A DNA stretch of 64,000 nt from Physcia stellaris (taxonomy: Eukaryota > Ascomycota > Lecanoromycetes > Caliciales > Physciaceae): the NCBI GenBank assembly GCA_018902385.1, contig JABSSW010000044.1, positions 1 to 64,000 of the forward strand. Direction: 5' to 3'. The notes under the pieces are model-generated. The model ran no database searches. It was not told the origin of the DNA and was given only the letters and a program-made list of their open reading frames with translations. Both the position numbers and the translations under genes were made by a program. Below are positions 1-49,532 of the stretch, piece after piece. Position 1 is the stretch's first letter. Each line of letters begins with the position of its first letter.

Positions 1-3000
1 AAACAAATGACATAAAAAATTCGTTGTTTTTTATCAAAATTTTTTCTCGCAAGTTTGCAGGTCGACATTGTCACGTCAAAATTCGCTGAAAAAAAAATAT
101 CATTTTGTTTGTCATTTTTTTTTTTGTTTTTGTTTTGTTCGAAAAAATTCGAATTTTTTTTGTTTCGTTTTTCGATTTTCGCGTCGTTTTTTTTTTGATT
201 TTTTTCGTTTTCGTTTCGTTTGCGTTTGTTTCGTTTGTTGATTTGTTGTTTACATCGCAAACAAATTCGTTTGTTGTCGCGTTTGTTTTTGCGTCGATTT
301 CGATTTCAATCAAATCGCGTAATCAATAATAAACAAAATTTCTCGTTAACGCGACGACAATTAACATAACGCAATCGAAATCGATTTGATTGTTGTAATG
401 TGAATTTTGATTGATAAATTTATTGACGCGTCACATTTACATTTTCGTGTTTTTTTCTGATTTAATAATCGCATGATTTTGTTTGTTGTTGCGGTTTTTT
501 TTCGTTGAATATTGAATTTTGTTTTTTGTTATGACGTGTTGTTTTGTTGTTTGTTTGTTGTATACAAATTCAGGCATATAATCAAAAACAATTCACAATA
601 TTATTTTATTACGGCGCTTTTGCGTCGCAATTATTATTATTTTTGTTTTTTGAATCGTTCACGTTTTTTCAATTTTAAAAATTGACGTGTTTGTTTTTTT
701 GCTGAAAATTTTTCGCTCGATTTCGTTTTGAATTTGTTCGTTTTTCGACGTTTTGCAATTTTTTCAAATTTGCGTAATTCGCGCGCATTTTCGAATTTGA
801 CAATTGCGTTTTTCGTATTTTCGAAATGTTTCATTAATTTTCACGAATTTTCATATGACGATAAATTTATTCATGCAATAAAATATTCAAATTGATTTTT
901 TAATGCGTTTGTTTAACATTTGCGATATTTTATTTTTTTTTTTTCGTTTTTCATTAATATCGGATTGCGATTTTGAATTTGCGTCGTCACGATTATATCA
1001 AAATTGAATAAAAAAACATGAAACACAAAATGTATAAATTTATATTATTTAAACAAATCAAATTCGTAAATTTGCGTATTTATTTTTTGACAATTTCGAA
1101 AAAATTCAATTGTTTATGATCAATTTTTTTTTGAAACGTAATGTGCGTATATTTATATCACGCAACAACATTTTTTTTTCAAATTCAAAAATTTTCATTA
1201 TATGATTTTCATTATAATATTTGATTTGTTGTTCGAAAATCATTTTTCACAAATTCATTAAAGCTGCTTCCGATTGTTTCGCAACGTTTTTGTTTTGTTT
1301 GTTGCAAATGTTTTTTTTTTTTGAAAATTGTTCACAAAATCGTTGTTTAAAATCGCAACGTATTTTAAACAAAATTTTTGAAAAATTTGATCAATGTTTG
1401 AATATTTATTATTATTGTAAACAAATTGTGTCATAAATAACAATTTTGATCAATTATTTTGTTTGAAATTGCAATACACGCGCAAATAATGTTCGAACAT
1501 AATATTTTGTTTTTTTGTTTGTTCATTTGTTTGTAAATGAAAAACAATATTAAATTTACGTTTCGTTTTCAAATTTCAACACAAAATAAATCAAAAATTG
1601 TTTGTGAAAAAAAAAATTTTTATTCGAAATAATGTTACGTATTATTTCATGACGACATACGAATTCGTCATAACAAATTCGCAAAATTTATCGCGTTTAA
1701 CGTTTTTGCGATTATTATGTACGTTGCGTATTTCGTCAATTTGTTTATCAATATTAATATCAAATCGTTAATTTTTTCAATATAAAATTTTTTAACAAAA
1801 AACATATTCGTAATGAAATTCATTTATAATTGTATCGAATGATTGTTTTTTTTTTTTTTCGACGAAATGTTATTATATCGTCATAAAATTTATGCTCGAT
1901 AAATTCCGCATTCGTTGATAATTTGAACAAATACGTACATAATTTGTTATTTTTTTCGATCATGTTTCAAATCAAAATATTTGCGTCGATAACATTTTTG
2001 ATTTTTGTTCGCGCAAAATGTTCAACATTTGAATCGTCATAATTTATTCAAAAATTTTTTGTTTTGTAACGAAATTCAAACACATAAATTTTGAAATCAC
2101 GACGAAAATTCATTTTTTCGTTAATTTCATTTCGAAAATTCGTTTTGTTTGTTTGAAATTTTGACGTCATTGTTTGTCAATAACAAAACGTTTTTTTGTT
2201 GTAATTTGAATAATCACGCAATTATTTCTTTTCGAATTTTGTCAAATAAAATTTTTTCGATTTCAAATAAATTTGACAAAAATCGAAATGCGACAATGTT
2301 TAAAATTTTGCAAACACATTTATCGAGAATTTTTTCATTCGAAACAATATTTCGAATATTTGTCGTAACAATATTACGTAATCGCGTTGTCGATGTTGAA
2401 ATTTGATTGAAATCAAATACACGTTAATCGTTTTGCAAATCAAATTGATAATTTTGAACGAAATTTGTTTCAAAAATAAAAAAAAATTTATCGTTATTTT
2501 TAACGTTATTTTCGATTTCATAAAATCAAATTGTTTTTCGATTTGACGCGTTCGCAAAATTCATGTTTTGTTTTTGCGATAAATTTTTTTTGAAAATCAA
2601 ACGTAATTATTTTTGAAAAGTTCAACGAATTTGTTTCGCATTAAAAAGTAAATTTGATTTGATTGTCATAATTTATCGAAAATTGTTGTGATCAAAAATA
2701 ACGCGAATAAAATTTTGTTATTTTGCAAATAATGTTTTCGAATTTTAAAAATCAAACATTATCGTTTCAATTTTTGTCACGATTGTTTTCAATTAATTTT
2801 AAAAATTTTCTTGAAATCGAAATCGAAATCAAATTTTGTTTTGATCGTTTTTGTTTTTTGATTGTCAACACATTATTTTTTCATGATTAAAAACATCAAT
2901 TTTCATGCGTTTTTTTTTTTCAATCATAATGCGTAAAAATAAAAACAATCGTCGAATTAAAAACGAACGTTCAAAACGCAATTTTAATTTTTTTGTTATA

Positions 3001-6000
3001 ACAAATGAAAAACGATTTTTTTTCGACGATTAAATCGCGTCAAATTTTTAAATGATATTACGATTTGCGAAATTTTTTTAAAAAAAAATTTATAAAATTC
3101 AACAAAATTTAAAAAAATCATAATATTTTTCGTCGTTTTCGAATTCAAATCAATCGACGATTGCATTTTTACGCGAACGTTTTTTTCAATAACATTGCGA
3201 GTTCAACAACGAAATTTAAAAAATTGATTTTTTTTTTTTCAATTCTCGCATTTTTTCAATTTGACATACAAACGATAACGTAATAACGTTTTAAACATCA
3301 AACGAACATGAAAATTTGTTTGACGATATTTTGAAATAAATCAGCATATCATTCAAATACATCACGCAAAAACGTCAATGTACATTTAATCGCTTTAAAA
3401 TTAAATTGAAAAATAACAAAAACGTTAACAAAATCGAAAAAAATAATTTTATTCGTATTGTTTATAACGAATACGAAAACAATTTTTCATTCATTCAAAA
3501 CTTAAATTCGAATTTTACGATACGCATTTCGAATGCTTATTTTGACGAAACGTTTAATATTTTTGAAACGTTTTAACGTTTCAAACAATAACGACAATGA
3601 ATAATGAATTTTTGATCGTGATTTCATCGAATTTTCGATAATTCATCGTGATAAACGCAAAATTGTCATTTAATTTTTTGACAAACAACACAAATATTTT
3701 CATCAATGAAATACGTTGAAAAAACGAATTCATTTTTTCGTCAACGCGTTTTCGAAATAATTGCGTATAATTAAATAATTTAATTATTAAATATTGTATA
3801 TAAATTCAAACGCGAATTTTTGTCGATTGTCAAAATAAACAACATATTCGATTTGATTTTGAAAATTCAAATTGTTCGACAACGTTTTGAAAAATTTCGC
3901 TATTATATCATTAAAATAATATCAAAAGAAGTCGTTGAATCGATTTCATTTGTAACGCATTAAACGAACATTCATTTCGTTTTCGATTGTGATAATTTTG
4001 CGTTAAAAACATTTGATATAATTTTTCAACAATCAAACGATCGATAATTTTAAAAATGACAATCATAATTAAATCAACGAATTTTTAAACAAAAATTTTA
4101 TCGAAATTTTTATCATAAAGAATTTTCATAATTATCATCGACGACGAACATATTTTTAACGACGATTATGTTAACGAATGTCAAAATCGACAACATTCAC
4201 TTTGAAAATATTCAAAATAAATGTCGAATTTCGCATGTCAATCGTTCAAAAATTAACATTTTGTTTTGCATGTTTTTCATTATTTCAATCATGATACGCA
4301 CGTTTTCATAATATTTTACATTGAATCACACGATCGTTAACAAATTTTATACGTTGCTTAAAAATGAATTTTTTGAAATTCAAACAATTGCATTTGTTTA
4401 ACAAAATTTGTAATATAAATTTGGATTTCAACATCAAAATCAATCAAACAAATAATTGAAATTTGTTTGTTTGATACGTATAATAAAAATTGATAACGTA
4501 ATTATCAAACACGAAATTTTCGTTTTAAATTCATTTTTTCAATGTTTCAACGATCAAACATCAAAATCGTTTTTTTCGACGAAAAATTTTGAAATAATGT
4601 TTTTTTTGAATTTCGATAATTTTCGACACAAAATAATTTCGCGAATTTTGTGATTCGATTCCATATTTAAAAATGCCGTTGTTTTTGAATTTTGAAAAAT
4701 GCGAAATTGTGATTTTGATTTTGATTTTTTTTTTTTTGATGATTTTGTTGCGATTTCGTAAAAAAAATTTGATTGTTTTTTTGGAACGTTGTCAATTTCA
4801 AAAAATTCGGACATTATACGAAATTTTTTTGTTTTTATTTTTGTCGTCAAAATTGTCATTTTTTGATTTTTTTTGATTATTTAAAAATTTATTTTGTTTT
4901 GTTTTATATTGTTCGACGATTTATTTAACGTATTATCGTCGATTTTGAATTTGACGCCATTTTGAAAAATTAACGATTAATTTGAAAAAAATCGATTTTA
5001 CGTCACGCAATTTTACATTATTTTTTTGAATTTTGAATTTTGATCAACAATTTTTTTTTTATCGACATTGAAATTGACGTTTATTTTTGTTTTACAATTC
5101 GATTAAATATCGACGATTTCTCGAACAATGTTTTGTCGAAACAATTTTTTCGACATTTTCAATAACGAAATAATCGTTTATGACACGAATTATCGAATTG
5201 TTAAACAACGTTAACAAATAATTTTTATATTGTTTTTTATGTTTGTTTTTCAATAACATCAACATAATTACGTTATTCATTTTTTTTGTCGTTATCAAAA
5301 ACGACGCCGATCAATTTGTTTTCATATTTTTTGTTTGAAAATTTGCGTTTTTCGAAAACGATATATTTTTAATCACGCAATCAATTTTTCAAATTGTTTT
5401 AATTTTTATATTTTTCGAAAAAAATTTTTAATTGTTCGTTTTTTGATATGCGAAAACGAATTTTTATATTGATAAAAAATAATCGACGACGACGACGATT
5501 TCGATAAAAACGTTTCGTTTACTTAATGATCAAAAAAATTGAATCATTAAATTTTGATTCAATTTTCAACATTTTCGAAATTTTTATTTGTTTGAAAAAT
5601 CACGTTTGAATCGACAACAACAAACACAACGAAATTAATGTTATTTGACGACAACGAAACAAAATCATTTTTTCGTTGTGTTTCATTTTGATTAAAATAA
5701 ATAACAAATTTGTTTAATCGAAAATTGATCAACATTTGAAAATCAAAATTCGAAAATTGAAATTAAATTGAAACGTTTTTCGAATATTCAAAATCGATAA
5801 AATCGAGCATAAATTTTTTTGAAATTCGAACAATTTCAATAACTCGATTGATAAAAATCGAATAAAAAAATTTTCTGTTTTTTTTTTTTGTGATTGTCAA
5901 TAGAATCGAATCACGAATTTGTTCGAACGTTTCAAAAACGACGACGAAACGTTTTTGTCAATCAACATTTTTAATCGAACAATTTTCGAAAAACAATTTA

Positions 6001-9000
6001 AAATTATAAAAATTAAGCATTTGATTAAATTGCAATAATAATATTAATTGTTATAATAAATTTAAACACATAATAAAATTAATTGTTAAAATGAAAAAAA
6101 TTCGTAAAAATTTGAATATATAAACACGAAATGCGACAGTTAAATTTTAAATGTTTTAGCGTCAAGAAATTTCGATTGATTTCTTTGTCTCGTTACAAAT
6201 CGTCGAAAAAAAATATTAACGATTTTGTTTTTAATTACACGAAAATTGTATTCGTAATTCGAATTTTGAAAATTTTCGAAATTTTGAATTCGAAACGACG
6301 ATTAATATTATTCAAAAATTTTTTTAAATGTATTATCGTTTTCATTTTTCGAACGAATTTATGATAATTTTTGCATTTCGATAAACAAATTATCGCATTA
6401 ATCAAACGTTTGTTTGATAATTTTAAATAATTAATTGATTTTGAATGTATTAATCAAATTTAACGATATCATCAAATTATTAAAACGATTCAAATATTGT
6501 TCGAAAATTTCATTTTATTTTTGAATTTTATAAAAAATTTGTTTTCGAAAAATTTATTATATACATTATTCATTTTATCGAAATTATCGCACACGTTTTT
6601 CAAATTGTTTATTAATTTTTTAATGAATTTATACGAATATGCGTTATCATAATCGACACGATGTTCAATGATATTTCAAATCAATTTTTACAACGAATTT
6701 CGTGCGTAATAAATTTTATTTTTTTCGTTAAAAAATTGTCATAAATTTGATTCGAATTTGATTTTTAAATGAATTTTTCATTGTTTTTATTCGTCATGAT
6801 TTTCATAAAAATTGAAAATATTTTGATATTTAATTTTTGTTCGTATTGAATACGAAATATCAACAAATGTTTTTTTGAAAATGTTGATTTATGAAAACGT
6901 TCGAAAATTCGTTTTTGAAAAATTATAATTGATTTTTCGCAAAAAATTTTAAATAACAATTCGATAAAATTTTTTTCATGTCGAAAATTTTGACGTTTAA
7001 ATTTTTTACGAATATTTTTTAATCAAAATCATCAATGAAATTTTTTGACGTGTTTGTTTATTAATAAAATTTAAAATTTTTTTTTTCAAAATTGTTTTAT
7101 TCAATCGAAAAATTTTTATTTTTCGATTAATTTATTTTTTCGAATTCGATATTGATTTCGACAACGTTTCATTCGAACAATTTTTATTTTTTGATAAATT
7201 AAATTTTTGTCGACAATTTAAAACAACAATTGATTTTTCGTTTGAATTAATCGAAATTGAAAATCAAAAATTTTTGAATTTGAACGATGTTTTGTCGTTT
7301 TTGTTTTTTCAATTGAATATTTGTTTTCGCATATTTTTGTTGAATTTTTTGTTTCAATTTTTTTATCAAATTCATTTCATCAAAAACATAAAAATATTTT
7401 GCATTCAATTAATTGATCGATCGACAACGTTTTTTTAAATTTTAATGTTTTTCATTACAAATGAAATTGAATTTGACATTTTTGTCAACAAATTTAAAAT
7501 ATAAATTTATCGTTTTTTTTTTGCGATAATAATTTTTTGATTCGAAAATTCGAATTCGATAATAATGCGTCGATAAATTGTTTGTGTCGAAATCGACGTC
7601 GAATTTTGATGATCGAAAATGTAATTTGAAAATTATTTTTTCGTGTCGACGTATAAAAATTTTCGAATGCGATTTTTGTGAATTTTCATTTTTTTCATTT
7701 TTTTCGATTTTGAATCAAATATGTCGTGTTTCAACAACGAATTCGAAAAATCAAAAATTTTCATTTATAAATTTTTTTGAATGATTTGATTTTGAATGTT
7801 TAAAATTTTTTTCATACAATTCAATCGAATATGAAAATTGATTTTTTAAAAAATTAATTTGATTGTTCGAAAAAAATTTTGATATTCGATAAAAAAATCT
7901 TTTTTTAACAAAAAAATTTGAATAATGAATAAATTTTCAAATTCGATTGAAACGATTTCGATTCAACATGTTAACAACAATATGTTTTGTAAATATTTTC
8001 AAATTTTGATTTCGAATGAATAAAAAAATTTAAACGAATTAATTTAAATATGAAATTTTTTGAATTTTGATTTTTGAAATATGTAATAAAATTCGAATTT
8101 TGAAAATTTTCGAAAATTAAAAAAAAATGTTTAAAAATTCGAAACGTTGTTTGAATAATAAATATGTATAATTTGACATTTCGAAATAAATATTTCGAAA
8201 TGTTTGAATGATAAATAAAATGTGATTTTTGATGAATTGTAAAAAATGTAACACGAATTTCAACATTATGTTTCATCGTTCACGTGCAAAAATTGAAAAT
8301 TTTTTTTTCGTCGTTTTATTTGTATATCGAACACGATGTTTTCGATGAAAATTTTTTTTTTTCGTTTTGATATTAATTTTTCAAAATGAATATTATATTG
8401 ATATTTTCAATCGTAATTTTCAATTCACGATATTTTCGTCAAAATTGAATAACATTCGAAAAATTATTATTGTGTCATAAAATTACAATTTTCGATTCAC
8501 GATATTTTTGTCAAAATCGAATAATTTCGAAAGTTATATATTACATTGATATTTTCAGTCGTAATTTTCAATTCACGATATTTTCGTTCGAATTGAATAA
8601 TTAATTAATGAAAATTCTTTTTCGCGTTTTGAAATTTTATTTTTTCAAACTGAAATAAACGATTGTTACAATGCGTCGAGATCGTTTTCGTTATACGCAA
8701 AAATTGAATATTTTTATACATAAATATACAATCACGATTGTTTTTGAAATCGTTTTCAAATAAATGATTCGCATCGACGATAAATATTGCGTATTGAAAT
8801 CGTTCGAATATCATCAATACGAAATTGACGAATAATTATATTTTCTGAATAATCGTCAAATTGTCAAATAAATGAATAGTTAATATTGTGTCAGAAAATC
8901 GTCGCATGTAATTAATTGTATTGAAATTGACGAAAATATTAATTATGCAACGATATTAATTACATGTTGAAAAATTTTTTTATTTGCGATAATCATTCGA

Positions 9001-9886
9001 TTAATCGTTTCGATGATTTCGCAAACTCGTTCAATTCGAACTTGACAGAAATTCGAAATCAAAATCATCACAATAAGCGACGACGACGTCAAAACGTTAC
9101 ATATAAAAAACAATCATCAAAACACGAATTAAACGAAATATATTGAATTTCAATAAAATGATTACAAAACTTTTAATAAAAAAATAAAAGAATTTATGAC
9201 ATTTTGTCAGAATTTTTCATGATTTTGATGAGAAATTCGACAAACTAACGACATTTTCTGAATTCAACACAGATTTTACGAAATCGACGATAATAATGAA
9301 AATAATAAATTATTTTATCTCGTCGTAACTATTAACAACTAGAAATAAATCAAAAAATTGATTGCAAAATTTAAAATTGTAAAAATTTAAATTTAATTCT
9401 TTTCGAAAATCGCGTTTCATTGATTTTAAATAAAATTACGTGCATCAATAATGAGAAAAATAACGTTATTTTGATTGAAAACGCATTAATCAACGATAAT
9501 CGAAATAAATTTTGTCATCGTTTCGTATTATTGTTCATTTTCAGATTGCGTGTTCGTTCGAACATGATCATTGAATGTTAAATACGTATTGTATATCAAT
9601 CAACGTAATGAATGATAATTCAAAACGTTTCACTAATATGATAAAATAATGAAAACATTCAGAAATTAAAACGTTTTAAAATTCGAATTTTTCAAATTTT
9701 TCGTTTTTTTTTTTTTGACTTTAGAAAAGAAAATAATTAACACAATGACAAAAAATCAAAATCGAAATTCGATAAAATCATATAATCGAATGCAATGTTT
9801 TTGTTGTAAATTGTGTGAATTATGATTATCTAAAAAAATTTTACAGACGATTTTGTAAAAATCGAACGTCAAACATATAAAATTTA
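1..9886. other. AT-rich hypermutated block without genes
   Basis: I see no gene here. The sequence is long T and A runs; T runs end in CG or CA. CpT, CpC, ApG and GpG are nearly absent (2,401-2,700: 14 CpA, 15 CpG, 0 CpT, 0 CpC, 2 ApG). Short open stretches exist, for example 4,554-4,859 (-) and 71-313 (-), rich in K, N, F and I. They look like by-products of composition or remains of mutated coding DNA; none shows a domain I recognise. The block continues past the left edge of the window. Confidence 0.85.
8420..8600. repeat. Three short direct repeats in AT-rich DNA
   Basis: A ~33-bp sequence around the core ATTCACGATATTTT occurs three times, starting near 8,420, 8,491 and 8,568, with 70-78 bp periodicity. 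Copies differ by a few bases. No coding role is visible. Confidence 0.6.
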
Positions 9887-10120
9887 AACTGATCGCGACG
9901 AATCAAAAATTTGAAAAAATCAAAAATTTGATTCGAAAATCGAATCAAATTTGAAATGTAAAATTTGAAATTTGTTTTGACGTCAAATTCAAATTTTTGA
10001 TTTTAATGTCAAATTTAAATTCAAATCGACATATTCGATTTGAAATTTGTTTTGACGTCAAATCAAATTTTTTTTTTGAATTTGAAATTTGATTTGAAAA
10101 ATTTGATTTGATTTGAAATA
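9887..10120 (+). repeat. Left terminal segment of the inverted repeat
   Basis: Low-complexity sequence of alternating TTTGA/TCAAA words. It is mirrored at 27,830-28,058, and a third related stretch lies inside the right half at about 22,217-22,430. The internal copy marks the place where the second right-hand tandem unit breaks off, so it may be the end of a separate shorter copy. Confidence 0.7.
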
Positions 10121-10271
10121 TTATTTATAAAAAATAATAAAAATAGATTTTTTTTTACAAATTTTATTGAAAAGAAAAAAATATTGAAAAAAATTTTAAA
10201 CATGAATAATGAATAATGAATTTTGATAATGCAATTTAAAAAAAAAATTGATTATTATTCACAAACAAATG

Positions 10272-13200
10272 ATAATGTATGATAATAATATATTTTCGTT
10301 ATTTAATTAAATTAAAAATCGAACATTATGAAATTTGTATCGTTCGTATTTTCGTTATTTTCGAATTCGTTTTCGTTATCAAAATTTTTTACGTTTTTTT
10401 TTTCGTTATCGTCGTCGTTTTTTGCATTTTTTTTTTTTGATCGCATTGAAAAATTCGATTTTAATATTTCGATTTTTCGCATTGTGCGAAAAAACAAAAT
10501 TTTTAATTGTTTTTTCGCATTTTTTTTATCGTGTCAACAAAATTCGTTGTTTTCAATGCGCGAATTTTTTTATTATTATAAAAAACGCGTTGTGCGATCA
10601 ATTTCGTTATTGAATACAAATATTTTTTTATTGCGTTTTGCGTTCGTTCAATGTTTTTATCGTTTTGAAATTAAAATGAATTATCAATGAAATTAACAAA
10701 TTTTAATATTTAATATTTATTGATTATTGCGAAAATTCGAAATTAATTGTTTGATGTATGATTTCGATTGCATTTTTTTGATATCGTTTTGTCGTGTTTG
10801 TTCGTCGAATTTTTTTGTTTTGTTGATAAATTTCATTTTTCAAAAAACACGTTAAAAATTAATTAAAAATCGCAATTTTTATATGCATTATTCGATTGCA
10901 TTATCATGATTGTCGTTTTCAATACGAACATCGAACATTTTTTTTATCATTTTTTTTTTCAAAATTTTACGATTTTTTTCATCAAATTCAAATCAAACAA
11001 CAATTTTTATCAAATTTTTTTGAATTTGAACACAACGACATTATCGACATTTTGTGTTTTGTAAAATTTGATTTGAATTTTCGATCAATTTTTTTTTTTT
11101 CGCGATTAACGACATTTTTTGAATTCGTCGAATAAATTTTAACAAATATAAATTGTGCGAATTCGAACATTTTGAAAATAAATATCAACACGATAATGCG
11201 ACAAAATAATGCATCATTTTTGAACAATGTTCAAAACGTACGTCGAATATAAATCAATATCAATTAATCGATAAAATTGAAAACAAATTTGTGATTGAAT
11301 TTATCAACAAACGTGTTGCGATAAACAATTGAATCATATTTGAAAACGAAAAATGAATCAAATTTGAAAATTCAAATTAATATTTATTCGTCAAATTTGT
11401 GAATTTGTGTGCAATAAAATTGATTAACATCGATAATGCGATATGATCATGCATTCAATTTTGAAACGAAAAATAACGAATATTACACACGAAAATAATC
11501 AAATTTAACAAATGATTTATCAATATCGAAAAAAAAAAAATTGAAAATGTTGTAAAAAATCGATCGAAAATTGTCGACACGCGATTTTTGCGTTTATCGA
11601 AAAAATTTAAACGTCGAAATTAAAAAACAATATTTCGATGCAAAAAATTTAATCAAACATTCAACACGATCGCATCGATATTTTTGCAACGTTTGCAAAT
11701 AATGCAAATTTGTATCGCGAAAAAATGAATTTATTAATTAATGAATAACAATCGTTTTATCGCATGTTTAATTTTGTAATCAATGACAATTTTATTAAAT
11801 ATTCATTTGTAACAACAATAAATAATTAAAATAATGCACGAAAATAATGCATAAATTAACAAAATTTAAAATATTTCGACGTTCATTCAAAACTTAAAAA
11901 TTGAAAAAGAAATTTTTCAAAAAATTTTCGTGTTCAAAAATTCGTGAATTTTGTTTTTCAAAACGTTCAATCAACAATTGTTATTGTTATAACAATGAAT
12001 GAAAACGATGAAAATATTGTTGAAAATATTTCAACGAAAAATATAAATATTGATAAAAATGATAATGCAAAAAAATAATGCACAAATTAACAAATAATAA
12101 AACGTTTTGTTGAAAAAATTGAAATGTTTGTCGCGTTTTCGATCAATATTTCGTCGATCAATTGAAACATTTTTGCGAACGTTGTTAAAAAATTTAAATC
12201 GACAAACGTTGTTGAAATGTTTGTTGAATTTGTTAATGATAAAAAATTTGAAAAAACGCGAAATAATAAAATCGTTGATATTAATAATTTTAATAATTTT
12301 TCGTTTTGTAAATCGAATAATGCATAACGATAATGCATAAATTAACAAATCATCGCAATTGTTGAAAATGAAAACATTTCAAAAAAATTCGCAATAACAA
12401 CATTTCAAATGTTTGAAAATCGAAAAAATGTCGAAAACGATGACACGAATGAAAAAATATTTGATAAAAATGAAAATTCAAATGCGAACAAATTCGATAA
12501 TAATAATATTGTAATTATTTATATTGAATTCGAAAAAAATAATCAAATTTTAAATAAATCGAATAATGCGTCAAAATAATGCACAAATTCACAAATCGAA
12601 ACACGCGTTATGAAAAAAACAAATCGACAAATGAATAATGACATTGATGTGAACAAAAACAAAACGTCGATCAAAAAATTATTACAATTGAACATGATCG
12701 CGTTCAAATTTTTCGCGTTCAAATTTTTGCGTTCAAATTTTTTGCGTCGAAATTTTTCGCGTTCAAATTTGTCAATAAATCGAACAAAAAATCAATCGCA
12801 AAACGTTTGAATTTCATTAAAAAAAAAAAAAAAAATCGCGAACAAATCGATAATGCATTCAAATCATACGTTATCGAATATTGATTAACACATCAATAAA
12901 AACACAAACGAACAAAATTCGAAATGATCGTATTGCGCGAAATCAAACGTTTTCAAAAAACGATGAATTTTTAATTGCAAAAAAATCGTTCGCGAAATTT
13001 GTAAAAAAATGATACAAAACATAAAAAAAATGTCAAAATTCAAACATCGATTTTTGAAATTTTGCAAAAAAATATCGAAACGTTTGTCACAAAAATGTTT
13101 GAAAATAAATCAAATGTATTATTTTTGCGCATTATTTTGATAATTAATTTTTATAAAATAATTTATGAAAAAACGATTTATACGAAACGAATAATTTTTC

Positions 13201-13371
13201 AAATGAAAAATATTCATTTTGTTCGAAAAATTTTGAAAATGTTTGTGAATAACAATGTCACAATCATTTAAACACAATGTTATTTTTGTTGTATAATTAA
13301 TTTACATAATTTGAATTCGTGTTTGAATTGTTTTTTATATCAATATTTTTCATGCGTGAATTGAATATTAA
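10272..13371 (+). repeat. Tandem unit L1 (about 3.1 kb)
   Basis: First of two direct units in the left arm. Landmark doublets recur in unit L2 at offsets of 3,068-3,118 bp (10,884/13,995; 11,193/14,306; 11,433/14,543; 11,831/14,944; 12,062/15,154; 12,317/15,385; 12,563/15,632; 12,850/15,960; 13,115/16,233). The unit has a minus-strand ORF block at its left (10.31-11.23 kb) and K/N-rich plus-strand open segments of about 200 bp between doublets at its right, so its contents are divergently arranged. Confidence 0.8.
10312..10700 (-). pseudogene. Element ORF copy 1 (K/N/D-rich, unknown)
   Basis: One of four copies of an ORF with the order: helix-like segment containing KLIAQRVF, then KIRALKTTNF, an RKT-rich stretch, SHNxKNRNI, an acidic NDDDDEK tract and a C-terminal MFDF followed by a doublet. 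Family unknown; no capsid, polymerase, integrase or transposase motif is visible. This copy is broken. Confidence 0.5.
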
Positions 13372-13399
13372 ATGATAATGCATAATGATAATGCATTTT

Positions 13400-15197: not shown

Positions 15198-15395
15198 ATG
15201 TTCGCGAAAATTGATTTGTTTGTTTCGTTTATGACGAATATTCAATCGTTCAAATTTAATGTTTTGAAAAACGTAATGCGAAATTTAAAACGACAATCGA
15301 TACGAAATTTGAAAAAACGAAAAATGATGAAATTATTGATGTCGATAATAATATCAATAATAATATTTTTTTTTGATAAATCAAATAATGCATGA
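15198..15395 (+). pseudogene. K/N-rich open segment between doublets
   Basis: Open segment beginning MFAKIDLFVSF and ending DKSNNA, the last residues being encoded by the doublet itself. Its inverted partner is 22,592-22,795 (-). Related segments are 12,107-12,340 (+) with partner 25,652-25,885 (-). Several such ~200-bp segments each end in [S/D]NNA or NDNA in phase with the doublet, as if they were exons or modules separated by it. Confidence 0.4.
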
Positions 15396-15549
15396 AAATA
15401 ATGCATAAATTAACAAATTATAACAATTGTTAAAAATACGAAAATTTCAAAAAATTCGCAATGAAAACGATTCAAAAATTTGAAAATCAAAAAAATGTCG
15501 AAAACAATATTTCGAATAAAAAAAAATTTGATGAAAATGAAAATTTGAA

Positions 15550-18500
15550 TGATCAAATCAATTCGAAGTTAATAATTTTGACGATAATGAAACGAATGAC
15601 GATAACGATATTCGAATTTTGAATAAATCGAATAATGCGTCAAAATTTTGACAAATTAACAAATCGAAAAACGTCGCATTCAAAAAAAACAAATCGACGA
15701 ATAAATAATGACATTGATGTGAACAAAAACAAAACGTCAATCAAAAAATCACAAAAATTGATTTTTATCGCGTTCAAATTTTCATCGTTCAAATTTATTG
15801 CGTTCAAATTTATTGCGTTCAATTTTTTGCGTTAATTTTTTGCGTTCAAATTTTTTGCGTTCAAATTTTGTTCAAATTTTTTTAAATTTGATCAATCGAA
15901 CAAAAATCAATCGCAAAACGTTTGAAATATTTTAATTAAAAAAAATGATAAACAAATCGATAATGCATTCAAATCATTACGTTATCGAATATTGATTAAC
16001 ATTTTCATCAATAAAAACACAAACGAACAAAATTCGAAATGATTGTGCATTGCGCGAAATTAAACGTTTTCAAAAATCATTGAATTATTAATTGCAAAAA
16101 AATCGTTCGCGAAATTTATGAAAAAAATGATGCAAAACATAAAAAAAATGTCAAAATTCAAATATCGATTTTTGAAATTTTGCAAAAAAATATCGAAACG
16201 TTTGTTACAAAAATGTTTGAAAATAAATCAAATGCATTATTTTTGCGCATTATTTTGATAATTAATTTTTATGAAATAATTATCAAAAAACGATTCACGA
16301 AACGAATAATTTTTCAAATGAAAAATATTCATTTTGTTCGAAAAATTTTGAAAATGTTTATGAACAAAACGTCACAATCATTTAAACACAACGTTAATTT
16401 TGTTGAATAATTAATTTACATAATTTAAATTCGCGTTTGAATTTTGTTTTTCAAATCGATATTTGTTATGAATGAAATGAAAATTGAATCGATTAACATT
16501 TAAAAAACGCGAAATGTCAAATTATGTATATATTTGACGATTTTGTTGTCGAATTATCATCAAAATCATATAAAACGAAAACAAAATTTTTGTCAAATAT
16601 GACGTAACAAAATATTATCAATTTTCATGCAAAATGTTTTATAATTGATTTCGATTTATAACAATATTTAAATGAAATAATAATAATATAATAAATGATT
16701 TTTGTCAATTTTGAACAATACATTATATCATTATTTTTCATTTTAATTTTTGAATTGTTAAAATTTTATTTATGTTTTTCAAATAACGCAATATAAATAT
16801 GAATTTTAATTTTTGCATTAAATTATTCGTGCAACAAAATATTAAATATCGAATTATTCGAATATTTAATTTTTCAAAAAATCAAAAATCATCATAAATA
16901 AAACAAAACAAATATTTATAATAAAAATTTGTTTTTTGATAAAGTTGAAATTCATTTTCGATAATTGAAAACAAATAATTTTAATACATTATATATCAAA
17001 ATAAAAAATAAATAAAAAATATCGATTTAAAAAAACAAAAAAAAATAAAATATTATTCGATTAATTTCATATATAAATCAAAACAATACGATTTGATATG
17101 TTATTTCAAATATATCATATATGTTTGTATAAATCATTTAAATAAATTAAATTATTAAAACATATATTATTTATATTACAATTATAAATTTATAATTATA
17201 TTATTATTTTATTATATTTTATATTTTCATATGATTAATAAAATGACAATTTTGTAATTTTATAATAATTTATATATAATATAATATTGATGTTTAAAAT
17301 TGTCAATTAAAATATTATTTAACAAAAAATTCGTTTTTATTGTGATTATTATATTTCGAAAATTTTATTAATTGTTTAAATTATTGATTATGTTAATATT
17401 TTAATTTCAAATTTGTATTTTGAAAAATCAAATATTTCAGATATCATATATATGTTTGAATTTGAATTGAAAAAACGTTTATTTATGACAATTGAATTTC
17501 AAATTTTTAATTTTAAAAATGTATTTCAACGATTAAATTTTAATTTTTTTCAAAATTCGAATATAATTAACAAATCAATATTCGTTTTGAAAATTTCAAT
17601 TGATTGAATTTTCAATGAAAAATTTAAATTAATTTCTATATACGAATTAACATGTTCAATAATGTTTTTTAATTAATTTAATATTTTTGTTTTGAACAAT
17701 TATTCGTTTTGCATGAAAATAATTAATTTTGTTAACAATTAATAAATATCAATAAAATTAAACGTTTTCAAAATTCGAACAATTAAAAAAATATTTATTT
17801 TCGAATATAACAATAATTTAAATTTCGATTGTTTTTTTGTAATCAATTTTCAACGATTTTGTTTGAATTCGCATTTCGACATTTTGATCAATTATTTCAA
17901 ACAAAATTTTCGAATCATTCGTTGAAATGACAATTTTGATATCATAAAATCAAATCGATTTTTGATATTTTCGAATTTTTTAAAAACGTTCAATCGCGTT
18001 TTGTTTTTAATTCAATAAAAATCAATTTGTGCGAATTAAATGCATTATCAATATGCATTATTTTTTTTAATTTCGATTTTTTGTTCGAAACATTATTCGA
18101 AACAATTTTACGCGAAATTTCAAAAACGATCAAATCGATTTGAAATTTTTTTTGTTAAATCATTCAAATTTTTTTTTTTTTGCGCGAATCGATTTTTTTT
18201 TTCAACATCATTTTCACGATTTTTATTTCGTGAATTTTTAATTCGTTTATTCACGATTTTTTTCGCGAATTATTATTGATTTGAAATTGATCAATTCGTT
18301 TTTGAATCGTTAAAAATGCGACGATGTTTTCGTTCAACAATATCGTTAAATTTCGATATTTTTCGCGATTTTCGATCGAAACATTATCAATATTTTTTTC
18401 GAAATTTTCAACAAACGAATTGATTTTTTCATTTTTTTGTTTTCGACATCATTCAAAAATTTCGTAATCATGATATTTAAAAAATCATTTTTCAATTTTT

Positions 18501-21500
18501 AATCGTCAAATATATTATTATCAAACATTATTTCGATTCATTTTATCGATGAATTTTTCGAAATTTTCAACAAACGAATTGATTTTTTTTTTTTTTTGTT
18601 TTTGATATCGTTCAAAAACATCAATGATCATTGTATTGAAAAAAATCAATTATTAATTTTTAATCGTTGAATGCATTATTATTAAATATTATTTTGATTT
18701 ATGTTATCGATATTTTTTTTTGTTTTTTGTTCGTGTCATTCAATTCAAATTTTAAACATTTTTTCAAAATCGAAAAATCGATATCAATTTCGTTTTTCAT
18801 GAATGTTTCATCGTTTCGCGAATTGAAATTTTCAATTTCGAAAATGTTTGAATTTTGAAAATGTTTTGATAAATTTGTCGTTGAAAAATATTTTCGAACA
18901 AATTTTGTTGTATTATCAATAATATATTCAAACAATAAAATGAAAAATACAAATTTTCAAATTTTATAAAATTCATGTTTGTTTGCGTTACGAAATAATT
19001 TATCAAAAAATTATTAATAATAAATTAATTAAAATATTAAAATGAAAATTGAAAAAAAAAAAAAAAAAAAAAAATCAACGTTTATACGATTCGAAAATTA
19101 AATTTTGCAATTATATGCGATTATGCGCAATTTAATTAATATTTTCGATGTTTTGATTGAATGCAAATAATTTATGCATTATTTGTTTGCATTATCGATA
19201 ATTATTGCAAATTTCATTTCAAATCGTTTATTATTAAATTTTGAAATCATAAAACGAAACATTTTTTTTATTGAACGACGAAAAACATTTTTTATTACAA
19301 TTTCATTATTTTCGTTTTTTTATCGTTTTATTAAATTTCAAATTTTCGAAATAACATTTTTAAATTTTACATTTATCGTTCGATTATAATATTTGATTAT
19401 TATCGTTTTTTCAATCGTTTTTTGATTCAACATTGTTCGATCATATTTACAAATTCGACGTGTCAAATTGAAAATTCGTTTCATTTTTATCGATGAAACA
19501 AAACAAAACAAAATATTTTTCGTTATTCGAATTAATCGAAAAAAATTCGAAACATTATCGTTTCAATATTGTCAATTAAATTTTTTTTCATGATTGATAT
19601 AAAAAAATAACGTTCGATTTCGTTTTGTGATTGTTTCGATTTTCGATTCGATTGCAAAATCGAATTAATAAAAAAATTTATTATTTTGTTAAATTGAATT
19701 TCAATGCATTATTTTGATGCATTATTTTTTTATCGAACGATTAAAAATAACGCGTTAAAAATTATTATATATTTTGTCATTATAATGATTTCGATAATAA
19801 TTAAAAATCGTTTACGAACGTTATTGATATACGTATGTTTTTTTTTTATGATTTTTTCGAAATTGTCATTTTCATTTCAAATTTCATAAATCGATAATTT
19901 GTTGATTGAATTTAAAATATTAACAAAATCGTATATCAATTTATCATTTTTTTTTGTTGTCGCATAATATTTGAAAAATTTTTGAATAATTTTCGCACAA
20001 ACAATCAAAATTAATAATTTGTCGAAATATTGATTTTGTCGTATCGTTTCATTGAAATAATTCAAATGATCGTATAAAAAATTGAAAATTTTAAATTCAA
20101 TTTGCACATTAATGTTCGTGATTCGTGAAACAATCAACGTGATTTCGTAAAATGTTTTTAACATGTTTTCGAAAAATAAAATTTGATTTCAATTATCATC
20201 AAATATTCGAATTTTGACAATTTTGACATTGTTGCGATTTTTTTGAATTCATTTATCAACGAATCGTCGAAATTGATAAACACGTCGTATCATAAAATAA
20301 CAAAAATTTCAACGAATTTTGACATTTTGTTTCAATTTTCGAAAACGTTTAATTTTTGTTTTTTTTTGTAATTTCACAAACGAATTTTTCGTTGCGAAAA
20401 AAAATTGATAACAATCGTCAAAACGCGAATTTGATTATTTTGTTAACGAATGCATTATTTTTTTGCATTATCGAATTGATTTATTTTTTTGACGATTTTT
20501 GACATTTTTGTATTTTGTTCGATGTCATCGATTTGATCATTTTTCAAATTTTGAATAACATTATCGTTAATAATTTCGATTTCAATCGAATTGATAAAAT
20601 TTTGTGCGATTAAATTGCACATATGAATTAAACAATTCATGAAATTTTGATTCACATTTCAATTAATGTTCATTTCAATCATCGTTAAATTCAATAATTG
20701 TTTGAAAATGCGATTATTGAATGCATTATCAATCGTGATCGTCATTAATTTTTTTGTTATTTCATAAAATTTTAATATTGACAACAAAAAATTTAACATT
20801 TTTTTTTCGTCATGACAAACATTTAACGAAACAAAATCGATAAATTTTTTTTGATATTGAAAATTAATATTCATTCAATATATTATCACATTTAAATAAA
20901 CGATTTTTTGTTGATTGAATTAAACATTTAACGAAATAAAAATTCGATCAATATTTTTCAATTCGTTTTTCAATTGATCACGAATTTTTTCATAATTTTT
21001 CGTTACAAATTGATTTAATTTGATACGATATAATAATTTCAAAATGAATCGATTTATTTTTAAACATATTCGAAAATGTTCGTTTTCGATCGTTCGATAA
21101 AAAAAATCACAAACAATAAAAATTTTAATTAAATGTTTTAAAAAAATTTTCGTCGAATGTTGCACGAAAATCGAATTTGTTTTTTTTTAATAAAAATAAA
21201 TAAATGTATTATTAATATGCATTATTCAACAAATTTACATTAATATTTTCGAAAAATTCGATTATTTTTGAAAATCAAACGACATTGTTCGATTTTTTTT
21301 TTCAATTTTAAAACGATGTTTTGCGATTTTCAAATGTTTGTTTATAACGTTAATGTCGTTATTTGCGTTTGACGAATGTTGTTAAATTTTATAACATGTT
21401 TTACAAACAATCATTGATGTTTCGTCAAATATTTTCGTTATTTGAACAAATTTTTGTCAACATGAAACAATTTTATTTTTTTTGTTCGATCAATATAAAT

Positions 21501-22430
21501 TATTGTATTTTGTTTGAATTTTATTCAAAATATTTTCATCAAAATTGATTTGTTTTCATTATTTTAAAAAAGCATTCGAATTTTTTTTTTCAAAATACAT
21601 ATTTTTTATTGTTATGAAAATTAAAATCAAAATGTTTTGTTCGAAATTTTTTCGTCAATTTGATTATTTGATTTTGACGATTATTAAAAATTGAAATTAT
21701 CGATGATTGAAAATTGCGATGATTATCAAAAATTGAAATGATTGATTGTTGAAAATTGTCAATTGACATTTCGTCATCGTCGTTCATGATGAATGAATTT
21801 TCATGATTTTGAAATGAAAACGAAAAAAAATTCGAAAACAAATCGAAATTCGACATTTTATTTGACATTTGAATAAATAATAAAAATAATGCAAAATGAT
21901 AATGCAATTTGAAACATTATTTGTTTATAACACGAAATCAAATTTTAAAATAATGCACAAAAATAATGCAAATATCGATAATTGCAATCGTTCGATGAAT
22001 TTTTTGAATCAAAAAATAATATATTTCAAAGAATAATAAATTATTGAAAAAAATTGATAATAATTCGATTTTCGAATACAAAATAATATTATGATTATCA
22101 CGTTTGATTTATATGAAATAATGCAAAAAAAAATTCGAAAATTTTTTTTTGAAAAAAAAACATTTATAATTAATATCAAAAATATTGAAATAATGTAATA
22201 CGTCATGCGATAAAAATTAAAATTTTTGACGAATCAAATCAAATTCGACATCGAAATTTGAAATTTGATTCAAATTCAAATCAAATTTTGACATTTTGAT
22301 TTGAAATTGATTCAAATTCAAATTTTTTAACGTGTCAAAATTTGAATTTGATTCAAATTCAAATTCAAATCGAAATTTTCGATTTGCAAATCGAATCAAA
22401 TCGATACATTCGAACTTGAAACTTGATTCG
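15550..22430. other. Unpaired middle of the inverted repeat
   Basis: AT-rich sequence not mirrored across the centre (~18.99 kb). It holds ten doublets, mostly in reverse orientation (18,041 to 21,205), spaced 530-1,130 bp apart. The part at 16.5-17.9 kb is the most A/T-extreme and holds none. I see no coding sequence that I recognise. Confidence 0.6.
18395..18715. repeat. Two tandem copies of a ~159-bp repeat
   Basis: The words TCGAAATTTTCAACAAACGA and the following T-rich stretch start near 18,395 and recur near 18,554. The copies continue with similar sequence to about 18,715, where a TGCATTATTAT related to the doublet appears. Confidence 0.6.
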
Positions 22431-22591
22431 ACGATCAATTTATTTTCATTTTGATCAAGTTTTTTTTTATTCGAAATATTGTTTTCGACATTTTTTTGAT
22501 TTTCAGATTTTTGAATCGTTTTCATTGCGAATTTTTTTGAAATTTTCGTATTTTTAACAATTGTTATAATTTGTTAATTTATGCATTATTT

Positions 22592-22795
22592 TCATGCATT
22601 ATTTGATTTATCAAAAAAAAAATTATTATTATTATTGATATTATTATTGACATCAATGATTTTATCATTTTTCGTTTTTTCAAATATCGTATCGATTGTC
22701 GTTTTAAATATTCGTATTACGTTTTTCAAAACATTAAATTTGAACGATTGAATATTCGTCATAAACGAAACAAACAAATCAATTTTCGCGAACAT
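22592..22795 (-). pseudogene. Inverted partner of the 15.2-kb segment
   Basis: Same start (MFAKIDLFVSF) and same end (DKSNNA) as 15,198-15,395. The reading frames diverge in the middle, so at least one of the two has shifted. Confidence 0.4.
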
Positions 22796-24219
22796 AAATT
22801 TTGAAAATTGTTAATTTATGCATTATTTTTATGCATTATTATTTATTCGTGTTTTGAACATTTTTCGAATTATCATCAATATTATTTTCGTTATTTTCAA
22901 TGTTTGTTTGAAAATCGACAACATTTAAAAATTGATTTATGAAATTGATAACATCGATATCATTTGATGAAAACATGATTCAATTTTTGTAATTTAAATA
23001 TAAATTGAAATGTTTTAATTAATGTTAATCAACGTATTATTTTTATGCATTATTTTATTTATTTATTATTGTCACAAATGAATATTCAATAAAATTGTCG
23101 ATACGTTTTATCGAAATTTGTTCAACAATCAATAAATTCATTTTATTGCGATTCAAATTTGTTTTATTTGCAAACGTTGCAAAAATATTGATGCGATCGT
23201 GTTAAATATTTGATTAAATATTTTGTATCGAAATATTGTTTTTGATTTCGACGTTTAAATTTTTTCGATAAACGTAACAATCACGTGTCGACAATTTTCG
23301 ATCGATTTTTTATAACATTTTTAATTTTTTTTTTTCGATATTGATAAATCATTTCGCATATTCGATTTTTTTTTTTTGTAATATTCGTTATTTTTCGTTT
23401 CATCATTTACGTTGTGAATATTTTAAAATTGTATACATTATCATATCGCATTATCGATATTAATCAATTTTATTACAAATAAATTTTCAAATTTGACGAT
23501 TAAATATTATTTTGTATTTTCACGTTTTTTTTTTTTCGTTTTTAAATATAATTCAATTGTTTATCGCATAACGTTTGTTAATGATTTTAATTACAAATTT
23601 GTTTTCAATTTTGTCGATCATTTCGTATTGATTCATATTCGACGTACGTTTTGAACATTGTTCAATGATAATTATTATTTTGTCGCATTATCGTGTTGAT
23701 ATTTACATTCAAAATGTTTGAATTCGCACAATTTACATTTGTTAAAATTTATTCGACGAATTCAAAAATATCGTTAATCGCGAAAAAAAAAACATTGATC
23801 GAATATTCAAATCAAATTGTACAAAACACAAAATGTCGACAATTGTGTTCAAATTCAAAAAAATTTGATAAAAATTGTTGTTTGATTTGAATTTGATAAA
23901 AAAATCGCAAAATTTTGAAAAAAAATAATAAAAAAAAAATGTTCGATGCACGTATTGAAAACGACAATCATAATAATGCAATCGAATAATGCATATAAAA
24001 ATTGCGATTTTTAATTAATTTTTAACGTGTTTTTTGAAAAATGAAATTTATCAACAAAATAAAAAAAAATTCGACGAACAAACACGACAAAACGATACAA
24101 AAAAAAATGCAATCGAAATTATACGTCGAACAACAAATTTCGAATTTGCGCAACAATCGATGAATTTTCAATGTCAAAATTTGTCAAAATTTGTTGATTT
24201 CATTAATAATTCATTTTAA

Positions 24220-24570
24220 ATGCAAAACGATGACGACATTGAACGCGTGCAAAACGCAATAAAAAAATATTTGTATTCAATGATAAAATTGATTGCGCAA
24301 CGCGTTTTTTATAACGATATAAAAATTCGCGCATTGAAAACGACGAATTTTGTTGACGCGATAAAAAAAATGCGAAAAACAATTAATGATTTTGTTTTTT
24401 CGCACAATACGAAAAATCGAAATATTAAAATCGATTTTTTCAATGCGATCAAAAAAAAAAATGCAAAAAACGACGACGATGACGAAAAAAAAACAACGTG
24501 AAAAAATTCGATAACGAAAACGAATTCGAAAACAACGAAAATACGAACGATAAAAATTTCATAATGTTCG
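24220..24570 (+). pseudogene. Element ORF copy 3
   Basis: Inverted partner of copy 2. It has one of the longest open stretches of the set (24,220-24,501, 93 residues), beginning MQNDDDIERVQNAIKKYLYS. A further open segment lies just upstream (24,034-24,219, K/N/Q-rich). The mixed charge pattern, unlike the poly-F/poly-K look of random frames in this DNA, is why I think this strand was once coding. Confidence 0.5.
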
Positions 24571-24597
24571 ATTTTTAAATTGATTAAATAACGAAAA

Positions 24598-27500
24598 TGC
24601 ATTATCATTATGCATTATCATTTAATTTTCAATTCACGCATGACAAATATTGATATAAAAAACAATTCAAACACGAATTCAAATTATGTAAATTAATTAT
24701 TCAACAAAAATAACATTGTGTTTAAATGATTGAAACATTGTTATTTCACAAACATTTTCAAAATTTTTCGAACAAAATGAATATTTTTCATTTGAACAAT
24801 CATTCGTTTCGCATGAATCGTTTTACATTAATTATTTCATAAAAATTAATCAACAAAATAATGCGCAAAAATAATGCATTTGATTTATTTTTAAACATTT
24901 TTGTAACAAACGTTTCGATATTTTTTTGCAAAATTTCAAAAATCGATGTTTGAATTTTGACATTTTTTTTTATGTTTTGTATCATTTTTTTCACAAATTT
25001 CGCGAACGATTTTTTTGCAATTAAAAATTCAATCGTTTTTTAAAAACGTTTAATTTCGCGCAATGCGATTATTTCGAATTTTGTTCGTTTGTATTTTTAT
25101 TGATGTGTTAATCAATATTCGATAACGTATAATTTGAATACATTATCGATTTGTTCGTTATTTTTTTTTAATCAATGATTTCAAACGTTTTGCGATTGAT
25201 TTTTTGTTCGATTTATTGACAAATTTAAACGCAAAAAATTTCGACGCAAAAAATTTAAACGCAAAAAATTTGAACGCGAAAAATTTGAACGCGAATATGT
25301 TCATTTTTAATTGTTTTGTGATCGACGTTTTGTTTTTGTTTACATTAATGTTATTATTCATTTGTCGATTTGTTTTTTTTATAATGCGTGTTTCGATTTG
25401 TGAATTTGTGCATTATTTTGACGCATTATTCGATTTATTTGAAATTTGATTATCATTTTCGAATTCAATATGAATAATAACAATATCATGAATATCGAAT
25501 TTGTGAACAATTTTGATTTCATTTTTATCAAATATTTTTTCATTCGATTTATCGTTTTCGACATTTTTTCGATTTTCAAACATTTGAAATGTTGATATTT
25601 CGAATTTTTTTTAAATGTTTTCATTTTCAGCAATTGCGATGATTTGTTAATTTATGCATTATCGTCATGCATTATTCGATTTACAAAACGAGAAATCATT
25701 ATGATTATTAATATCAACGATTTCATCATTTCGCGTTTTTTCAAATTTTTTATCATTAGCAAACTCAATAAACATTTCAACAACGATTTTCGATTTAAGT
25801 TTTCGAACAACGTTCGCAAAAACGTTTCAATTGATCGACGAAATATTGATTGAAAACGAAACAAACAATGCAATTTTTTCAACAAAACGTTTTATCATTT
25901 GTTAATTTATGCATTATTTTTTTGCATTATCATTTTTATCAATGTTTACATTTTTCGTTGAAATATCATCAGCAATATTTTCATCGTTTTCATTCATCGT
26001 CATAGCAATAGCAATTGTTGATTGAACGTTTTGAAAATTTTTAAATTTTGAATGAACGTCGAAATATTTTAAATTTCGTTAATTTATGCATTATTTTCAT
26101 GCATTATTTTATTTATTTAATGTTGTTACAAATGAAAATTTAATAAAAATGTCATTGATTACAAAATTAAACATGCGATGAATCGATTGTTGTTTATCAA
26201 TCAATAAATTCATTTTTTCGCGATATAAATTTGCATTATTTGCAAACGTTGCGAAAATATCGATACGATCGTGTTGAATGTTTAATTAAATTTTTGCATC
26301 GAAATATTGTTTTTAATTTCGACGTTTAAATTTTTCGATAAACGCAACAATCGCGTGTCGACAATTTTCGATCGATTTTTTATAACATTTTCAAATTTTT
26401 TTTTTCGATATTGATAAATCATTTGTCAAATTTGATTATTTTCGTGTATAATATTCGTTATTTTTCGTTTTAAAATTGAATGCATGATCATATCGCATTA
26501 TCGATGTTAATCAATTTCATCGAAACACAAATTCACAGATTTGACGAATAAACATTAATTTGAATTTTCAAATTTGATTCATTTTCGTTTTCAAATATGA
26601 TTCAATTGTTTATCGCAACACGTTTGTTGACGAATTCAATCACAAATTTGTTTTCAATTTTATCGATTAATTGATATTGATTTATATTCGACGTACGTTT
26701 TGAACATTGTTCAAAAATGATGCATTTTTTGTCGCATTATCGTGTTGATATTTACATTCAAAATGTTCGAATTTGCACAATTTATATTTGTTAAAATTTA
26801 TTCGACGAATTCAAAAATGTCGTTAATCGCGAAAAAAAAAAAATTGATCGAAAATTCAAATCAAATTTTACAAAACACAAAATGTCGACAATGTCGTTGT
26901 GTTCAAATTCAAAAAAATTTGATGAAAATTATTGTTTGATTTGAATTTGATGAAAAAATCGCAAAATTATGAAAAAAAATGATAAAAAAAAAAAATGCTC
27001 GATGCTCGTATTGAAAACGACAATCATGATAATGCAATCGAGTAATGCATATAAAAATTGCGATTTTTAATTAGTTTTTAGCGTGTTTTTTGAAAAATGA
27101 ATTTTATCGACAAAACAAAAAAAAATTCGACGAACAAATACGACAAAACGATGTCAAAAAAAATGCAATCGAAATCATACGTCAAACAATTAATTTCGAA
27201 TTTTCGTAACAATCAATGAATATTGAATATCAAAATTTGTTGATTTCATTAATGATTCATTTTAATTTCAAAACGATGAAAACATTGAACGAACGCAAAA
27301 CGCAATAAAAAAATATTTGTATTCAATGACGAAATTGATCGCGCAACGCGTTTTTTATGATAATATGAAAATTCGCGCATTGAAAACGACGAATTTTGTT
27401 AACGCGATAAAAAAAATGCGAAAAACAATTAAAAATTTTGCATTTTCGCACAATGCGAAAAATCGAAATATTAAAATCGAATTTTTCAATGCGATTAAAA

Positions 27501-27666
27501 AAAAAAAATGCAAAAAACGACGACGATGACGAAAAAAAAAACAACGTAAAAAATTTCGATGACGAAAACGAATTCGAAAATAACGAAAATACGAACGATA
27601 AAAATTTCATAATGTTCGATTTTTAATTTGATTAAATAACGAAAATGCATTATCATGATGCATTAT
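24598..27666 (-). repeat. Tandem unit R1 (inverted)
   Basis: Inverted counterpart of L1, full length. It keeps slightly more unmutated sites than L1: at 27,042 the 8-mer reads GTAATGCA, which suggests that the initial A of the common form came from G. Confidence 0.8.
27240..27626 (+). pseudogene. Element ORF copy 4
   Basis: Inverted partner of copy 1, ending in the same NENTNDKNFIMFDF tail at 27,626, immediately before the doublet at 27,646. It is broken. Family unknown. Confidence 0.5.
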
Positions 27667-28060
27667 CATTTGTTTGTGAATAATGATCAATTTTTTTTTT
27701 TTTCAAATTGCATTATCAAAATTCATTATTCATTATTCATGTTTAAAATTTCTTGTAATATTTTATTTTTTTCAATAAAATCTGTAAAAATAAAATTTAT
27801 TTTTATTATTTTTTATCAATAATATTTCAAATCAAATCAAGTTTTTCAAATCAAGTTTCAAATTTAAAAAAAAAATTTGATTTGACGTCAAAACAAAGTT
27901 TCAAATCGAATATGTCGATTTGAATTTGAACTTGACATTAAAATCAAAAATTTGAATTTGACGTCAAAACAAATTTCAAACTTTACATTTCAAACTTGAT
28001 TCGATTTTTTCGAATCAAATTCTTGATTTTTTCAAGTTTTGATTCGACGCGATCAGTCTA

Positions 28061-49405: not shown

Positions 49406-49532
49406 GTGTGGACGGGCGATGGATTTTCAAAAGGCGCAGTAGCTCTCTGTAGTTGAGCGCCCACCTGGGCTGGCCCTGAGTAAGCCCTGGCTTTCTTGTA
49501 TTCTTAGATTGCTGAAAGCTGCTGAGGGCAAA

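Follow-up and report, generated by a model that had tools for sequence, protein, structure and literature searches.

At the left end of contig C44 (JABSSW010000044.1, 417 kb) of Physcia stellaris, a lichen-forming Lecanoromycete (Caliciales), cytosine survives almost exclusively in front of a purine, and the question is which process can leave such a pattern. The window analyzed here comprises the first 64,000 nucleotides of this contig in assembly GCA_018902385.1 (43.97 Mb, 147 contigs). A sequence-only reading of the window had proposed a process similar to repeat-induced point mutation (RIP) with a reversed neighbour preference, removing CpT and CpC instead of CpA. This proposal was supported by aligned repeat copies, by the normal composition of single-copy DNA and by the presence of RID- and DIM-2-type genes, and we consider it very probable that the pattern reflects RIP with a changed target rule.

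Targets in repeated DNA

Dinucleotide counts for positions 1 to 28,060 agree with the restriction of cytosine to positions before a purine on both strands: base composition predicts 679 CC+GG and 2,407 CT+AG, but only 14 and 118 were observed, and CA+TG (3,202) and CG (2 x CG = 2,840) are plentiful. In most 2-kb bins of the first 30 kb CpG even reaches 4-5 times the expectation from composition. Two hand counts made earlier proved to be exact, with 24 C between 12,001 and 12,300 (15 CpG and 9 CpA) and 29 C between 2,401 and 2,700 (15 CpG and 14 CpA) next to 2 ApG. The extent of 1 to 28,060 given with these counts had to be enlarged: the depletion is real there, but it does not stop at 28,060, which is the end of an inverted repeat, and goes on to about 35,090 (Table 1). 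Compared with the genic half of the window, this block contains per kb of strand 0.3 versus 60.9 CC and 4.8 versus 67.4 CT, with similar frequencies of CA and CG. Since CC and GG are back from 35,107, the border is sharp (within roughly 100 bases).

The targets could be analyzed with a Ty3/gypsy element carrying reverse transcriptase, RNase H and integrase domains, of which an unmutated copy is located on contig C12 (L026, C12:58800-62000) and which has at least 40 further matches in the genome with 69-95% identity. Eight copies were aligned to this reference, seven mutated ones and an unmutated sibling (L028, C5:1165010-1168209). In the mutated copies, given in the same order throughout, C-to-T exchange affected 77, 87, 93, 96, 98, 98 and 97% of CpC, 44, 50, 76, 81, 88, 98 and 95% of CpT, 4, 4, 5, 6, 6, 14 and 13% of CpA and 2, 3, 2, 3, 3, 4 and 5% of CpG; the corresponding values for the sibling were 5, 4, 3 and 3%. 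Other substitutions in the mutated copies amounted to only 42-66 per 3.2 kb. Using clean triplets of the two least mutated copies, NCC was found to be mutated to 78-88% and NCT to 39-54% for every 5' base, NCA to 3-6% and NCG to 1-4%. The two most mutated copies showed a higher exchange of CpA in CAT (23%) and CAC (17%) than before A (8%) or G (10%). CpC is the first target and CpT the next one, followed late and weakly by CpA; CpG is spared, and the 3' neighbour decides. The description of CpT and CpC as exhausted and CpA as kept holds overall, with the refinement that CpC is exhausted before CpT and that the most mutated copies show a weak exchange at CpA.

A mutated relict ribosomal DNA (rDNA) unit (L006, C41:40000-49999) with matches to the small subunit, 5.8S and large subunit RNAs served as an independent test. 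Comparison with the Rfam consensus revealed C-to-T exchange at 47/57 CpC, 32/65 CpT, 2/64 CpA and 4/57 CpG. These counts cover 15 of 18 blocks and, on both strands, those cytosines that are conserved in the consensus; the other three blocks contained hardly any or no conserved consensus letters, or mostly gaps. A first count over 7 of the 18 blocks had yielded 35/43, 17/38, 1/41 and 2/29, respectively. A search for a second 5.8S, in which 39 of 2,644 candidates were scored, did not identify one.

These data exclude two simple explanations. Plain CpA-directed RIP of the Neurospora type was rejected: the gypsy copies lost 77-98% of CpC and 44-98% of CpT versus 4-14% of CpA, and CpA of the rDNA relict was changed at 2 of 64 positions. 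Decay of methylated CpG, or an activity of the Masc2 type, was rejected on the basis of the low exchange of CpG (2-5%, and 4/57 in the rDNA).

The coding consequences point in the same direction. CpA-directed RIP would convert Gln codons to TAA and TAG. The seven mutated gypsy copies contain 73 new stops, 63 of them TGA, 10 TAA and none TAG; Trp codons were lost to TGA in 61 of 70 cases, and Gln codons to a stop in 8 of 251. The rule also alters the coding outcome, as Trp is turned into TGA and Gln codons mostly survive. Among genome-wide matches to RVT_1 (150 scored of 527 candidates) the stops consist of 250 TGA, 33 TAA and 3 TAG.

Most mutated sites are common to two of the mutated gypsy copies, L029 and L030 (phi 0.76 at CpT), which indicates common descent from one mutated copy or an exchange of sequence. 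Between reference positions 880 and 1160 of L029, CpC was mutated at 18/20 sites of one strand and 0/13 of the other, and between 2430 and 3200 at 66/74 and 9/50 sites. The second strand of the same two tracts is mutated as well in L030 (12/13 and 40/50). The tracts of L029 suggest an action on single strands which nearly exhausts CpC in one pass.

The depletion follows repeated DNA. Searches resulted in 63 matches for a 3.1-kb unit of the window, 78 for the less mutated element at the right end of the block, which has related sequence elsewhere in the genome, and one for a genic control (36700-39900). If the process is confined to repeats, single-copy DNA should show no shortage of CpC and CpT, and both the control stretch and all of 20 interior 1-kb samples (hand-chosen positions spread over the contigs) were normal. 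Twenty 10-kb stretches, with a bias to contig starts (11/20), contained depleted bins in 13 cases and none in 7. In these depleted bins CC was often 0 per 2.5 kb, and the counts of CA and CG equalled those of normal DNA. The contrast in CC between normal, mild and severe bins is circular because these classes, which left 15 of 264 bins unassigned, were partly defined by CC number. The published genome of P. stellaris (46.57 Mb, 43.32% GC) was obtained with Nanopore and Illumina sequencing from an ascospore culture, and the terms "RIP" and "AT-rich" do not occur in the available part of that text (PMC7513301). The published GC and the measured GC levels (~49% and ~25%) would put the affected share of the assembly at about one quarter.

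Standard indices do not report this mutation. Using RIPper-type limits (product ≥1.1, substrate ≤0.9, composite >0; PMC6714961), 0 of 69 windows of positions 1-35,000 and 0 of 141 AT-rich 1-kb bins were positive, with mean values of 0.47 for product and 1.54 for substrate. Indices built on TpA and CpA overlook strong RIP here. Simulated saturation of C before a pyrimidine (CpY) in the unmutated copy gave a GC of 0.26, 63 CA and 68 CG per kb and a TA/AT ratio of 0.31; old copies are close to these values (GC 0.245-0.252, 58-59 CA and 64 CG per kb, TA/AT 0.39-0.40). Simulated CpA saturation, with a TA/AT ratio of 2.04 and no CpA, does not match them.

Enzymes, mechanism and alternative explanations

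The genome contains the RID-type and DIM-2-type methyltransferase genes that had been suggested as a place to look: three DNA_methylase genes were identified (the one on contig C5 as two matches). One combines DNA_methylase with DUF7893, and we take it to be DIM-2-like on the basis of its motifs and architecture. The RID orthologue carries PPCQ and EQT motifs and comprises 932 amino acids in the public annotation (G7Y79_00005g016670, 99% identical). A second RID-like gene (RID2), with PPCQ and EET, has an open frame of 515 amino acids after removal of two GT-AG introns. In a tree of hand-picked methyltransferases (108 of 109 placed) RID2 belongs to a group of 31 proteins (support 94/99), including one from Heterodermia, which is separate from the group with the RID proteins of Physcia and Heterodermia. 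We suspect RID2 as a candidate for the new target specificity.

The motif IV sequence SDAHT was dropped as a Physcia-specific lead, since most of the RID-like proteins listed (P0121-P0237) contain it, many of them from lichens, including Usnea and Teloschistales; SPAHT is present in Xylona, Aspergillus and others. The HMMER alignment places this site of the Physcia paralogue opposite the Ile after PCQAFS of M.HhaI. Eight matches of the dCMP-deaminase type (PF00383) are present in the genome, and a search with APOBEC_N resulted in no match in this genome and likewise none in the control genomes. A dCMP-deaminase-type match at C64:178666-179121 holds four TGA, perhaps in a mutated duplicate gene or in introns.

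Sequence comparison demonstrated which sites are targeted and in what order, the dependence on the 3' neighbour, the association with repeats, the single-strand tracts (in one copy) and the TGA stops. A process leading to this pattern may be outlined as follows. Repeated DNA would be attacked one strand at a time, and C would be converted to T when a pyrimidine follows, first and almost completely at CpC and then at CpT, with CpA hit weakly and late and CpG spared. Repeated rounds on both strands would leave C only before A or G. The acting enzyme is probably a C5-methyltransferase of the Masc1/RID type, either canonical RID or the paralogue RID2, and the exchange may proceed through deamination after a methylation step that is either completed or blocked. 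By analogy with Neurospora, the sexual phase would be the time of action. Three features of RIP in the wide sense were found: C:G to T:A exchange in repeats (7/7 mutated copies), spared single-copy DNA and an open gene of the RID/Masc1 type.

Several observations weigh against RIP with a changed target rule. The preference for CpA, the usual mark of RIP, is absent, and the standard indices are negative. Single-strand tracts were seen in one of seven copies, and the tracts were chosen after inspection. L026 and L028 are 95% alike and both unmutated, so that the process is not fully efficient. C/T differences between saturated copies are more frequent at CpA (2,076) and CpG (1,667) than at CpT (894) and CpC (36), as counted in 51 of 72 pairs (21 self-pairs of L020 and alignments below 250 bases were left out). 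This is expected once the CpY sites are exhausted, but CpA does continue to change slowly.

Among the other explanations slow decay is the strongest, although we regard it as improbable. It assumes methylation of CpT and CpC by a DIM-2-type enzyme in heterochromatin and spontaneous deamination of 5-methylcytosine over many generations, with no dedicated mutator. The DIM-2-like gene, the heterochromatin-like character of the mutated blocks and a 2026 review giving CpT as the preference of DIM-2 (PMC13297926) are in line with it. However, CpC and not CpT is changed first, the loss of 77-98% of CpC is accompanied by only 42-66 other substitutions per 3.2 kb, and a slow decay of both strands does not fit with tracts in which one strand is fully hit and the other intact. 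An AID/APOBEC-like cytidine deaminase acting on single-stranded DNA could account for the tracts in L029, and the eight deaminase-type matches provide possible genes. APOBEC-type enzymes read the 5' neighbour, whereas the 5' base has little effect here and the 3' base decides (NCC 78-88% and NCT 39-54% for any N); such an enzyme is very unlikely.

An artefact of sequencing or assembly, for instance modified C miscalled as T in Nanopore reads, has an even smaller chance to explain the data. The assembly combines Nanopore and Illumina reads (PMC7513301), and Illumina coverage of AT-rich DNA may be thin. Against a miscall, the copies represent successive stages, with some mutations common to several copies and others confined to one, L029 and L030 agree in their mutated sites (phi 0.76 at CpT) but not in the single-strand tracts, the rule is obeyed on both strands, and the published GC of 43.3% is consistent with a large AT-rich share. 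Compositional drift, AT-biased gene conversion or CpG-methylation decay unrelated to RIP would fit an AT-rich block, but can practically be dismissed, because CpG is kept and the substitutions are nearly all C-to-T at CpY.

Repeats of the window and their relatives

The features of the window are compiled in Table 1. The saturated unit of about 3.1 kb often occurs as a tandem dimer, mostly in one cluster per contig (matches of at least 1 kb, 19 contigs). Relatives of the unit at 9885-28060 are located at C2:1-3440, C4:168973-175123, C6:443151-449328, C16:245429-251579, C31:537823-543949, C47:368303-374472, C65:168227-174389 and C72:180670-186971. As a guess, it could be an element present once per chromosome, such as a centromere core. 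The short direct repeats in the less mutated element are perhaps the end of a long terminal repeat. At the start of contig C10 (L020, C10:1-10000) short overlapping direct and inverted self-similarities resembling tandem repeats were noticed at about 1-1024 and 1825-3236. Viral contigs were searched for proteins related to that of the gypsy element, without a match.

Table 1. Positions of repeats and of depleted and normal DNA in the window.
Feature	Position	Strand	Remarks
AT-rich block depleted of CpC/CpT (both strands)	1..35090		GC ~23%; dinucleotide counts
Longest run without CC or GG	5308..30886 (25.6 kb)		Dinucleotide scan
Longest run without CC, GG, CT and AG (complete saturation)	17637..21571		Dinucleotide scan
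Less mutated repeated DNA	30001..35090		CC nearly gone; CT ~30-50% left in many 500-bp bins
Normal DNA	35107..64000		GC ~50%, no dinucleotide depletion
Inverted repeat, left arm	9885..15544	+	93% identical to 28060-22442
Inverted repeat, right arm	22442..28060	-	Pairs with left arm 9885..15544
Tandem dimer (~3.1 kb), unit 1	10267..13373	+	82% like unit 2
Tandem dimer (~3.1 kb), unit 2	13370..16489	+	Relatives of at least 1 kb on 19 contigs
Short direct repeat in less mutated repeated element, copy 1	30696..30896	+	86% identical to 33595-33796
Short direct repeat, copy 2	33595..33796	+	Pairs with 30696..30896

Comparison with known systems

The Physcia case functions as RIP, and its target rule was not encountered in the literature examined. 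As a set, this literature describes leanings to CpA, CpT and CpG (PMC2621366, PMC4014442, PMC5555474, PMC7882544, PMC12542154, PMC9907504, PMC7513301, PMC5602860, PMC8959702, PMC13297926, PMC6714961, PMC4352252, PMC11969663, PMC12543289). A case led by CpC and sparing CpA was not found in the available parts of these papers; the RIP survey of Clutterbuck (2011), in which a CpC case is possible, was outside their scope. According to a screen of more than 1,000 fungal genomes published in 2025, a preference for CpA is common to RIP-like defences (PMC12543289). The Physcia genome is a clear counter-example, and its target rule shows that this preference can be reversed. The choice of target is an evolvable property, and the genome offers natural material for finding the residues with which RID-type enzymes read the neighbouring base.

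A more general but rather doubtful idea is that a mutator reading pyrimidines arose within the Masc1/RID family, either as the EET-type paralogue of RID that occurs in lichen metagenomes or as a lichen RID whose motif IV loop is altered. An entire group of lichens might then have a form of RIP which makes almost exclusively TGA stops, does not touch CpA or CpG and escapes indices based on CpA. If true, the stated common preference for CpA would reflect the way in which RIP is searched for.

With RIP of Neurospora crassa, which depends on RID and partly on DIM-2, the Physcia system shares C:G to T:A exchange in repeats, spared single-copy genes, sharp borders, AT-rich blocks and homologues of RID and DIM-2. 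In contrast, Neurospora removes CpA (product 1.59 and substrate 0.44 in large RIP regions; PMC6714961), whereas the values in Physcia are 0.47 and 1.54, CpA is largely kept and CpC is lost first. In Magnaporthe oryzae, Botrytis cinerea and Sclerotinia sclerotiorum, which also possess a gene of the RID class, CpT is a main signature in transposons (Amselem et al. 2015, PMC4352252). CpT occurs in these fungi alongside CpA, and the signatures listed are CpA, CpT and CpG with no CpC (PMC4352252); in Physcia CpC leads and CpA is nearly spared. The Lecanoromycete Cladonia rangiformis shows strong RIP, bimodal GC, sharp borders and homologues of RID and DIM-2 as well, but its low GC peak of about 16% (PMC12542154) is below the 24-26% resulting from pure CpY saturation, so that its targets are probably wider. 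In methylation induced premeiotically (MIP) of Ascobolus, DNA is methylated without mutation, and the changes in Physcia lie in the sequence itself. The hypermutation in the basidiomycete Rhizoctonia solani AG8 is likewise a C-to-T exchange with a bias of the 3' neighbour, but the preferred target there is CpG (PMC4014442), which is spared in Physcia.

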